Below are positions 705 to 36,446 of a stretch of DNA of 64,000 nt, piece by piece. The DNA lies in assembly GCF_003149515.1 (NCBI RefSeq), contig NZ_CP029145.1:2604001-2668000 (forward strand), in the 5' to 3' direction. The notes below the pieces were generated by a model, which worked only from the letters and a program-made list of their open reading frames with translations, made no database searches and had not been told where the DNA came from. Numbering within the stretch: the stretch's first letter is position 1; every line of letters starts with the position of its first letter. The DNA comes from Hymenobacter nivis. Lineage in GTDB: Bacteria > Bacteroidota > Bacteroidia > Cytophagales > Hymenobacteraceae. Made by a program: the position numbers and the translations under genes.

Positions 705-4388
<3,684 letters not shown>

Positions 4389-7691: not shown

Positions 7692-7699
7692 TACCTTTA
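7692..7699 (+). promoter_or_regulatory. Probable -7 box of the Leu-like tRNA
   Basis: TACCTTTA matches the Bacteroidota -7 consensus TAnnTTTG except at the last base, in an AT-rich stretch 36 bases before the tRNA. A small leader hairpin CAGCAA/TTGCTG lies between it and the tRNA. Confidence 0.45.
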
Positions 7700-7734: not shown

Positions 7735-7848
7735 TGTAGTGTGGTGGAACTGGCAGACACACCCTCCTCTCTCGAGGGTGAAGGTTCGGAATAAATCGGC
7801 CCCCGGCCGGCTAACCACTTCGTGGAGGTTCAAGTCCTTCCGCTACAG
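7735..7848 (+). tRNA. Leu-like type II tRNA with anticodon CTC and a 45-nt variable region
   Basis: A full cloverleaf can be drawn. Acceptor TGTAGTG (7735-7741) pairs with CGCTACA (7841-7847, one G-T pair). D-stem is GTG/CAC with the Leu-type loop GAACTGGCAGA. Anticodon stem is CCCTC/GAGGG (7762-7766 / 7774-7778) with loop CTCTCTC, so positions 34-36 read CTC, a Glu(GAG) anticodon. T-arm is GGAGG-TTCAAGT-CCTTC. Position 73 is G, and CCA is not encoded. Leu tRNAs have A35 (anticodons NAG or NAA), so body and anticodon disagree. The variable region (7779-7823) is 45 nt, about two to three times the usual type II arm, with GAA-GGTT pairing to AACC-(AC)-TTC. A promoter-like box and a strong hairpin flank it. 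It may be a recoded or regulatory tRNA-like RNA, or a decayed gene. Confidence 0.7.
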
Positions 7849-7849
7849 C

Positions 7850-7902
7850 CCAAAGGCTTAAAGAGGCGACTTTACAGTAAAGTCGCCTCTTTAAGCCTTT
7901 GG
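7850..7902 (+). terminator. Perfect 25-bp hairpin between the tRNA and dsbD
   Basis: Two 25-base arms pair perfectly around the 3-base loop CAG. A T6 run follows two bases later on the plus strand, so it ends the tRNA transcript. It probably also serves the convergent dsbD gene. Confidence 0.85.
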
Positions 7903-13842: not shown

Positions 13843-14614
13843 GGCGGTGGTCTATTAGCGAGTGAGGTTGTAAATTAGCGCATGGTTTATACGCAACACT
13901 TATGTGCCCGCTGTGGTAGTGAACACATCCGCCGCAATGGCACGCAGGGTGGTCAGCCTAAATACCAGTGCAAGGCGTGCGGGTATCAGGCACGGTTTAT
14001 ACCAGCGGCCGTGGCCAAGGCGGCACAGTATGCGCAGGTGGAAGCCTTGCTCACCGAGCGTAACTCCCAACGTAGCATCGTGCGCGCCACCGGCGTGGCA
14101 CGGATGACCATCGCCAAGCTGATAAAAAAAAGCGGCCTTGGACTCGCCCCGGCTGCCGCGTCGCCGGACGAAAAAGGCCCAACGCCGGAAACCTGAAGCC
14201 CTCGAACTTGACGAAATGTGGACCTTCGTGGGCCGGCGCACGTGCAAAGTCTGGTTGTGGCTGGCCGTTGAACGGGCCTCGCGCCGCATCGTGGCCTGGG
14301 TGCTGGGTTGCCGGGGAGCCGCCACGGCCCGGCGCTTGTGGGCCGCGCTGCCGCGACGCTACCAACGCCACTGCCGCTACCACACCGACCAGTGGGAAGC
14401 CTACGCCAAGGTCTTGCCCGCCCACCAGCATCGGCCTCATCCCAAAGGCAGCGGCAAAACCAATATTGTTGAGGCTATCAACTGCTCCTTACGCCAGCGC
14501 TGCGGGGTATTGGTCCGCAAATCCTGCTCCTTTAGTAAAAGTTTGCGCATGCACACGGCTCGCATCAAGATTGTGATTGACAATTACAACCTCACTCTTC
14601 AATAGACCGCCGCC
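13843..14614 (+). mobile_element. IS1-family insertion sequence, complete ends
   Basis: 772 bp, close to the 768 bp of IS1. Inverted ends: left 13843-13875 starts GGCGGTGGTCTATTAGCGAG; right 14582-14614 reads GGCGGCGGTCTATTGAAGAG on the complement, and both continue TGAGGTTGTAA. Both sides carry the 8-bp target duplication GGGCATTT (13835-13842 and 14615-14622), typical of IS1. Confidence 0.93.
13882..14605 (+). CDS. IS1-family transposase, InsA/InsB frames
   Basis: Frame 1 (13882-14196) encodes an InsA-like protein with a zinc finger (CARCGSEHIRRNG then CKACGY) and an HTH. Frame 2, open after 14126 and ending at 14605, encodes the DDE part: LELDEMWTFV, HTDQWEAY, TNIVEAINCSLRQRCG. The frames meet at A8 (14124-14131). 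Frame 2 is +1 relative to frame 1, whereas classic IS1 uses a -1 shift. Transcripts lacking one A, or a +1 slip, would join them. Otherwise the copy is inactive. Confidence 0.85.
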
Positions 14615-15393: not shown

Positions 15394-16443
15394 TAGGACT
15401 TACGCAAACGCGAGCGAAGGCTGGCGTAATTCATGTCGCATATACTCATCCAAAAAGCCTTGTTTGAGCTGATAGACGGTTTGTTTGGTTTGGTAGGCGG
15501 CTTGTTTAAGGCAGGTCCAAGCGCGCACGGCCAGGGCAATATGATTGCGCTGACTGCGGGCCAGCCGGCACTGGCAGGCCTGCACGCCGGTGAGTTGCTT
15601 GAGTTCGCGGTGAAACTGCTCAATCGTCCAGCGGACGCTGCTTTCGTGTTCGGCAGCGGCCGTGTGCAAGGGCTCAACCTCGTTGGTGAGGAGGTAGTCC
15701 GTCCGGTGGGTGGACACCAGTACGCGGAAGAGTTTCAGTTTGAAATCTTTGGGCATGCCCTTCACTTTCAGGATTTTGCCAGCTTCTACTTCGGCGGCCG
15801 ACCAGCACAGGCAGGCCACGGGCTGGTAGGGCTGCTGGCCGCCGGAATCATCGACGAGCCGGTTGCTTTTCAGCGGGCAGTAAAATGTTTTGCCTTCGTC
15901 CAGCAGCCACTTGAACAGGGCCGTGGTGGCGTACCAGCTATCCATGAGCACCGTGCGGTATGGGATACTGCGCGGGGCCAATTGCCCGAGCATGTCGGCC
16001 ATATGGTCGAGCTTGGTCTTGCCGTCGGTGTCGGGGGCGAAAAGGCGGTAGTCAATGAGCCAGAACTGGTCGGTTTCGGGGTTGACGCACACACACGTCA
16101 CCAGGCCGATGCCGGCAATCACGCCGTGGGCGTTGCCGCTGTACTGGCGGCGTACGAGTTCGATGCGCCGGCTGTGGTGCTTGTCGAGCACCGTGTCGTC
16201 AAACAGGACGTAGCCCCGCGCGCTGAGCATCACCTGTGGGCGTACTTGCTGCCAGAGCTGGCGGGGGGTGAAACGCCGGGTTTTGAGAAAATAGCGCACG
16301 TTGTCGTGCGAGAGGCCCTCCAGATGCTCGGCCAGATACGTCCCCGTGTAGTTGACCTGGCTGCTCACCAAAAACTGCCCGTACAGTTGTGCCGTCACTT
16401 TCATGGCTTTTCCTTTCAAGTTACACTTTTTGCGTAAGTCCTA
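15394..16443 (-). mobile_element. IS701-like insertion sequence, complete ends
   Basis: 1050 bp with 15-bp perfect inverted ends TAGGACTTACGCAAA (15394-15408) and its complement (16429-16443). The 5-bp duplication AATTA flanks both sides (15389-15393 and 16444-16448). It sits in AT-rich DNA upstream of the TM2 lipoprotein gene, where it may separate that gene from its promoter. Confidence 0.9.
15400..16419 (-). CDS. IS701-like DDE transposase
   Basis: 339 residues filling the element, with an alternative start at 16404 (MKVTAQLYG). Motifs: GYVLFDDTVLDKHHSRR (first Asp), TVLMDSWYATTALFKWLL (second Asp), and SSVRWTIEQFHRELKQLTG (Glu), in the spacing of the DDE_5 transposases used by IS701-type elements. 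The open frame is intact and the ends are perfect, so the copy may be active. The family name is from memory of similar Cytophagales transposases; IS4-superfamily relatives are the alternative. Confidence 0.88.
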   Translation of the reverse strand: MKGKAMKVTAQLYGQFLVSSQVNYTGTYLAEHLEGLSHDNVRYFLKTRRFTPRQLWQQVRPQVMLSARGYVLFDDTVLDKHHSRRIELVRRQYSGNAHGVIAGIGLVTCVCVNPETDQFWLIDYRLFAPDTDGKTKLDHMADMLGQLAPRSIPYRTVLMDSWYATTALFKWLLDEGKTFYCPLKSNRLVDDSGGQQPYQPVACLCWSAAEVEAGKILKVKGMPKDFKLKLFRVLVSTHRTDYLLTNEVEPLHTAAAEHESSVRWTIEQFHRELKQLTGVQACQCRLARSQRNHIALAVRAWTCLKQAAYQTKQTVYQLKQGFLDEYMRHELRQPSLAFA

Positions 16444-36372: not shown

Positions 36373-36446
36373 GGTTGTGTAGCTCAATTGGATAGAGCAT
36401 CTGACTACGAATCAGAAGGTTTAAGGTTCGACTCCTTACACGACCA
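36373..36446 (+). tRNA. tRNA-Arg(ACG)
   Basis: 74 nt. Acceptor GGTTGTG/CACGACC with one G-T pair, D-loop with AATTGGATAGAG, anticodon stem TCTGA/TCAGA with loop CTACGAA giving anticodon ACG, T-loop TTCGACT. Discriminator A at 36446; CCA is not encoded. It reads CGU and, after inosine editing, CGC and CGA. Confidence 0.96.

Follow-up and report, generated by a model that had tools for sequence, protein, structure and literature searches.

A putative non-decoding tRNA with a possible role in asparagine synthesis in Bacteroidota and their phages

We describe a tRNA-like RNA, here called X, that a large group of Bacteroidota and some of their phages have retained, with a conservation that is more than chance. 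As judged from its sequence, X joins identity elements of AspRS with the U1-A72 pair that is read by GatCAB, and it looks unable to decode. On balance, we lean towards X being a metabolic, non-decoding tRNA that would be aspartylated and amidated to Asn-X, releasing free asparagine. It falls a little short of an even chance, in our estimate, that this non-decoding tRNA family acts as an RNA cofactor, so that AspRS, GatCAB and X make up a tRNA-based asparagine synthetase; with the same reserve, we propose that the putative synthetase stands in many genomes in asnA's place beside the regulator and was acquired by phages. X was not described in the titles and abstract openings covered by our literature search and, to our knowledge, it would be the first tRNA retained solely for the synthesis of an amino acid.

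Structure of X in the window

The window, a stretch of 64,000 nucleotides from Hymenobacter nivis, contains the mature part of X, from U1 to G73, on the plus strand at 7735..7848, as supported by a cloverleaf check, by our covariance model R1 (126.5 bits) and by covariation. A sequence-only reading of the window had pointed to paired stems, a Leu-like D arm, the loop CTCTCTC, a 45-nt variable region and G73 at this place. All these features were confirmed: the 15 pairs of the acceptor, D and anticodon stems are all standard. The 7-bp acceptor stem is formed by TGTAGTG (7735..7741), whose first three bases are kept in relatives (U1 in 89/89, G2 in 89/89 and U3 in 88/89 distinct copies of X), and by CGCTACA, which is followed by the discriminator G73 (7841..7848). 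The D arm (7744..7760) has a 3-bp stem and the Leu-like loop GAACTGGCAGA. The anticodon arm (7762..7778) has a 5-bp stem, CCCTC/GAGGG, which is CCCGC/GCGGG or CCCTT/AAGGG in some relatives, and its loop (7767-7773) reads C32 U33 C34 U35 C36 U37 C38. The giant variable region (7779..7823) consists of a 4-bp base stem, an internal loop in which AAA and CTAAC are conserved across X, and a hairpin of variable length; the T stem-loop GGAGG TTCAAGT CCTTC (7824..7840) follows.

The next base is C74 (7849), just as in the ordinary tRNA genes of these loci, where a C also comes after the discriminator. It is followed by a perfect, terminator-like inverted repeat at 7850..7902 (arms 7850-7875 and 7877-7902), so the terminator noted earlier is present, but with arms of 26 bp and not 25 bp. 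As to the promoter-like box noted earlier, TACCTTTA at 7692..7699 (+) has one mismatch to TAnnTTTG, which we take to be the Bacteroidota -7 box consensus, and an exact TAnnTTTG is absent from the upstream stretch of the window copy. An open frame upstream of X presumably encodes an SPFH protein. Two transposase-like open frames, which we take to be transposases, lie nearby at 13882-14605 (+) and 15400-16419 (-), and the latter had no close match among plasmids.

Detection and covariation

Neither ARAGORN nor the Rfam tRNA model RF00005 finds X in the window, where a tRNA-Arg at 36373 is the only match at the Rfam gathering score. Thermodynamic folding of the window copy gave z = -1.07 and a minimum-free-energy structure that is not a cloverleaf; as folding energy is unremarkable, the case for X rests on conservation. 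In a MAFFT alignment of 43 distinct sequences from the genus, which was not fitted to any structure, 97.4% of the pair cells were standard against 89.8% after shuffling. This high proportion does not fit the earlier suggestion that the window copy is a decaying gene. Pairs changed on both sides were found within the genus in four helices, namely the acceptor, D, variable-base and variable-hairpin ones; in the anticodon and T stems, which are well paired, there were none. A wider set of 69 distinct rows, in an alignment guided by a model with this structure and thus biased towards it, had 98.0% standard pair cells (85.6% in shuffles) and 280 cells changed on both sides (78.5 in shuffles). None of 500 shuffles reached either figure, slid controls were never above 60.7% paired, and all six helices of X contained both-side changes in this set. 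Decay was rejected on this conservation and covariation, but decayed copies of X do exist in relatives (L084-L087; L381, L382 and L391).

Distribution in the genus, the class and phages

The search of relatives that the sequence-only reading had put forward found X in the genus, in the class and in phages. A DNA search gave matches in 88 of 120 genus genomes, a few of them to the flanks or to part of the query only. With the model R1, 84 of the 120 carry a long form of about 107-199 nt (a 203-nt copy holding Ns is left out of this range) and 25 a 76-nt short form; four have only a decayed long form (G035, G051, G059 and G079) and seven have neither. No genome carries both forms among the matches listed (0/120), an exclusion that is weaker than its chance figure implies because these counts come from related lineages. 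In the short form, the variable loop is 7 nt long, the anticodon stem is different and the loop reads CTATCTC; U1-A72, G2-C71 and G73 are retained. This form seems to replace the long form and would do the same job; since it does without the giant arm, that arm is suggested not to be essential for the core task.

In a sample of the order, 266 of 291 genomes had a match at E <= 1e-9; this is an upper bound, since ordinary Leu tRNAs are among the matches of 50-61 bits and 81-86 nt. A second model, R2, built on 73 rows from the order and on two loci from other parts of the class, matched 51 of 295 class genomes in 19 families at E <= 1e-13, one of the 51 (G033) with the short form. Carriers among the matches listed include Dyadobacter, Cyclobacterium, Belliella, Emticicia, Aquirufa, Flammeovirga, Marinoscillum, Saprospiraceae and Chitinophagaceae. 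Three matches of about 60 bits and 84-87 nt in 198 genomes of the phylum outside the class were taken as ordinary tRNAs. One locus titled as a Rickettsiales bacterium (MAG; L296) holds two copies of X near SufB-like and AsnC-like genes, and because of this content it may be a mislabelled Bacteroidota genome.

X forms tandem arrays in many loci. Three to seven rows stand in tandem in L148, L149 (where one row spans Ns), L150, L151, L152, L154, L156 and L163; the arms of X are mostly alike within an array and very different between species.

An exact pattern requiring G34 found X in 36 viral contigs, all matched by R2, one of the copies being truncated where its contig ends. Several of these contigs can be recognised as phages by their terminase, portal and RNA ligase genes, the PHROGs protein scan having covered 8 of the 36. 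With one X sequence as query, nothing similar was found among annotated phages or plasmids. Other tRNAs are present in 18 of the 36 viral loci; in L350, X (3169-3319) lies between a tRNA-Gly and a tRNA-Ser, 4 and 9 nt from its neighbours. Two X phages with large tRNA arrays have RNA ligase genes (L364, 8107-9240 (+); L367, 1575-2828 (-)), and tRNA-repairing phages are known to carry such genes.

An Asp-type loop with a pyrimidine at position 37

Positions were counted in 89 distinct copies of X, after removal of identical sequences, an N-bearing copy from L149, one Leu tRNA and degenerate copies such as L084-L087; as copies were found with models or patterns, their invariance is favoured. A table of 237 sequences, filtered on TG...ACA ends, was not used for position 1-72 counts. 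In the loop, U35 (89/89), C36 (88/89) and C38 (89/89) are kept. Position 33 is U in 76 copies and lost in 13; at position 34, G stands in 50 copies, A in 20, C in 16 and U in 3; and base 37 is always a pyrimidine (U in 84, C in 5). U1-A72, G2-C71 and G73 occur in all 89 copies and G1-C72 in none. U20a is absent, because G18-G19 is followed by C-A-G-A/C, with one T among the 89 copies at the first of these positions.

The ordinary tRNA-Asp genes of the fetched loci have the loop CTGTCAC (7/7) and G1-C72 (9/9), and X differs from them mostly at position 37 of the loop and at pair 1-72; the tRNA-Glu genes have the loop CTTTCAC in four of six and A73 in all six. X thus has an Asp/Glu-type loop with a pyrimidine at 37, and glutamate is the less likely of the two because tRNA-Glu has A73 here. 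A purine at 37 was found in 157 of 162 ARAGORN tRNAs, a count that required U33 for loop placement, and four of the five exceptions are the short form of X. X does not have the fixed U33 and the purine 37 of canonical elongators, nor the A73 and Leu anticodon of tRNA-Leu. A long arm as in tRNA-Ser or allo-tRNAs is found in the long form; the 76-nt short form has its 7-nt variable loop instead.

Sections of PMC9976931 give G73, G34, U35, C36 and C38 as aspartate identity elements, G2-C71 as a minor one, and G1-C72 and G2-C71 as strictly conserved in bacterial tRNA-Asp. X has G73, U35, C36, C38 and G2-C71 from this set; it has G34 in 50 of 89 copies and G1-C72 in none. Parts of PMC9976931 and PMC4206432 state that U1-A72 permits GatCAB to amidate Asp-tRNA-Asn and that G1-C72 and U20a block amidation. 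By this rule, as sections of PMC9976931 word it, X resembles a GatCAB substrate: U1-A72 is present, and G1-C72 and U20a are absent.

Among the options of the sequence-only reading, a non-translating tRNA-like RNA fits best. Insertion of Leu or Ser at GAG codons became unlikely, base 34 being any of the four bases, U33 not being fixed and base 37 being a pyrimidine, and the ordinary Leu anticodon that relatives might have shown is absent among the tabulated X loops.

3' end and promoter

G73 is followed by C74 in all chromosomal (96/96) and viral (33/33) rows of X examined; the chromosomal rows are not all distinct, as some places are represented by two loci, and the count left out rows shorter than 100 nt and, from the 35 full-length viral rows, two with a start other than TGT. 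The same rule holds in 170 of 171 ARAGORN tRNAs of these loci, four of them the short form, so X has a tRNA-like 3' end by the standard of its own loci. Among 204 distinct upstream stretches, 121 have a TAnnTTTG box in the 70 nt before X, against 7.6 expected from mononucleotide shuffling, often with a TTG 22-24 nt ahead of it. Together, these sequence features suggest that X is transcribed and receives tRNA-type 3' processing.

An AsnC-like gene upstream of X and asparagine synthetase A in its place

Neighbours were counted around 225 distinct copies with TGT...ACAG ends and at least 700 nt of upstream sequence, a sample that is not random and in which array copies count separately. In 101 of the 225, the 1.2 kb upstream include an AsnC-like gene, which is divergent from X in all 101; by locus, the figure is 87 of 165. 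Downstream, no AsnC-like gene was found in 208 copies with enough sequence. The median distance is about 166 bp by alignment ends, with most values at 113-233 bp. By group, the gene was found in 20/24 copies of the genus set, 81/180 elsewhere and 0/21 viral copies; the 124 copies without it include the window's own and all 21 viral ones. The best NCBIfam match of the AsnC-like protein is E. coli AsnC, at 152.8-164.5 bits (three proteins) against a curated cut-off of 227. The AsnC-like gene and X are often near a SufB-like gene, presumably SufB from its sequence (e.g. L157, L158, L165 and L203).

In four relatives without X, a gene for asparagine synthetase A (313.4-322.5 bits, cut-off 309) is divergent from the AsnC-like gene, in the usual place of X, with gaps of 190-208 bp. 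In relatives without the long form, remnants of X were recognised by eye beside the AsnC-like gene in L381, L382 and L391, and probably also in L383-L386; R2 gave 19.1 bits for the remnant in L382 and 18.3 bits for that in L391. In E. coli, AsnC activates the divergently transcribed asnA, according to parts of PMC4482635 and PMC8707732. The X loci resemble this pair in having an AsnC-family gene divergent from its partner, and differ from it in having an RNA gene as that partner and a regulator whose score is under the curated AsnC cut-off.

GatB and other routes to asparagine

If X is a substrate of GatCAB, X-bearing genomes must have GatCAB. We judged the presence of GatCAB by GatB alone, in 80 genomes that were hand-picked from earlier lists before the search. 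GatB was found in 40/40 genomes with the long form and in 29/40 without it (Fisher P = 0.0004, not corrected for kinship). Four of these 29 have the short form; when they are grouped with X, the figures become 44/44 and 25/36, and the 11 genomes without GatB are all without X. The contrast recurs within families: in f17, G390 has X and GatB and G218 neither; in f37, G238 and G312 have both and G278 neither; and in f42, G282, G316 and G377 have both and G243 and G347 neither. Genomes without X in f1, f3 and f5 do carry GatB. GatB-like matches of about 350-364 bits lie in frames of about 1,100 aa (G214:C19:17848-19227, G818:C26:397494-398879 and G650:C6:121127-122509), possibly fused or unusual GatB; G214 and G818 are two of the 29 GatB-positive genomes without the long form.

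The companion prediction, that genomes with the long form have no other asparagine synthetase, was not supported, as 75 of the 80 genomes have TIGR01536 matches. AsnB-family proteins, which are candidate synthetases, occur in 37 of the 40 long-form genomes, and since such matches are nearly universal, X may be one of two routes to asparagine; it need not be the sole one. Judged by a frame length close to that of E. coli AsnB, a weak criterion for a true synthetase, all the frames of 528-590 aa among the matches listed come from genomes that have no long form (G131, G145, G608, G243, G347, G224, G267, G336 and G213). One long-form genome, G181, has an asparagine synthetase A-like protein at 302.3 bits, just under the cut-off of 309.

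Parts of PMC4206432 report a U1-A72 tRNA-Asn in Bacteroidetes that have GatCAB, and some Bacteroidetes with AsnRS, GlnRS and GatCAB and without asparagine synthetase. GatCAB could therefore act on tRNA-Asn instead of X. We found a U1-A72 tRNA-Asn in one locus (L398), from a genome without GatB.

Comparison with known tRNAs

The tRNA-Asn of the AspRS and GatCAB route (Deinococcus, Thermus and Bdellovibrio, in sections of PMC4206432) is like X in its U1-A72 pair, a host with GatB and the link to asparagine. It has U36, whereas X has an Asp-type loop with C36, is a separate gene and should not read Asn codons. X shares G73, U35, C36, C38, G2-C71 and often G34 with tRNA-Asp, and differs from it by U1-A72, the pyrimidine at 37, the Leu-like D arm and the giant variable arm. 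Allo-tRNAs and tRNA-Sec, as covered in parts of PMC7609411, also combine a long variable arm, G73 and an unexpected anticodon; unlike them, X has 7/5 acceptor/T stems, a 3-bp D stem, a longer arm and a loop that seems unfit for decoding. That review (PMC7609411) does not contain the word 'Bacteroidetes'.

A proposed route to asparagine and its alternatives

We propose the following route. X would be transcribed from its own promoter, probably under the AsnC-like regulator where this is adjacent, trimmed like a tRNA and then given its CCA. AspRS would charge it with aspartate through the Asp-type loop (U35, C36 and C38) and G73, and GatCAB would convert Asp-X to Asn-X, since in X the G1-C72 of tRNA-Asp is replaced by U1-A72. 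Hydrolysis of Asn-X would then yield free asparagine; no candidate for the releasing enzyme was identified. Insertion of asparagine at Asp codons by Asn-X would be prevented by the pyrimidine at 37, together with the relaxed positions 33 and 34. We infer the transcription, charging, amidation, release and regulation of X, as well as the reason for its giant arm. If the proposal is true, a class-wide tRNA family was overlooked by two standard finders. It could explain the asparagine supply of Bacteroidetes that have AsnRS, GlnRS and GatCAB but lack asparagine synthetase, and why phages of this Bacteroidota group carry a tRNA seemingly unable to decode. Against it stand the incomplete aspartate set (G34 and G1-C72, as counted above), the seven genus genomes with neither form and the four with a decayed form only, and the copies in phage tRNA arrays, which could indicate a role in translation.

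It is unlikely that X is a charged, non-decoding tRNA whose amino acid (Asp or Asn) goes into a reaction outside the ribosome, for example the modification of peptides or of the cell envelope. Uses of tRNAs outside translation are known, and the loop, acceptor-end and C74 evidence is shared with asparagine synthesis, but no transferase-like gene stood out in 134 loci, in which the two commonest neighbour clusters were AsnC-like (65 loci) and SufB-like (23 loci). We consider it somewhat less probable still that X is an uncharged structural or regulatory RNA, be it protein-binding, a decoy for anticodon nucleases or an sRNA. The conserved AAA/CTAAC motif in the giant arm would suit such an RNA, as would the RNA ligase genes that two viral loci have close to X; the acceptor end, discriminator and C74 are all conserved, which argues against it, as does the short form that seems to stand in for X without the arm. 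Lower again we place a special role in ribosomal translation, for instance in reading GAN codons slowly or specifically under stress: the loss of U33 in 13 of 89 copies, the free base 34 and a U or C at 37, where nearly all other tRNAs of these loci have a purine, outweigh for us the phage copies within tRNA arrays such as that of L350 and the tRNAs that accompany X in half of the viral loci. Finally, a Leu- or Ser-type tRNA misreading GAG, or a decaying gene, is very improbable: the Leu-like D arm, and for Ser the long arm and G73, are compatible with the former, but the loop varies, the short form has no long arm and Leu tRNAs have A73 here (38/39), and the strong covariation of X opposes decay.

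A shifted anticodon (reading 36-38) was rejected, as compensatory changes are found in the stem that encloses the 7-nt loop. X was also rejected as a cis-regulatory leader, as the loci inspected do not share the same downstream genes. A spliced intron in the variable arm was considered as well, but we know of no bacterial system of that size.

Hairpins downstream of X

In part of the genus, hairpins with the loop ATCTGGGTGGGT lie just downstream of X, usually two in succession at about 34 nt from each other (e.g. L016, 1424-1435 and 1458-1469 (-)). Their core, TCTGGGTGGG, is absent from the 64-kb window. The hairpins occur in 64 of 436 loci, many of them overlapping, and they persist where X is decayed or gone (L381, L382, L390 and L391).
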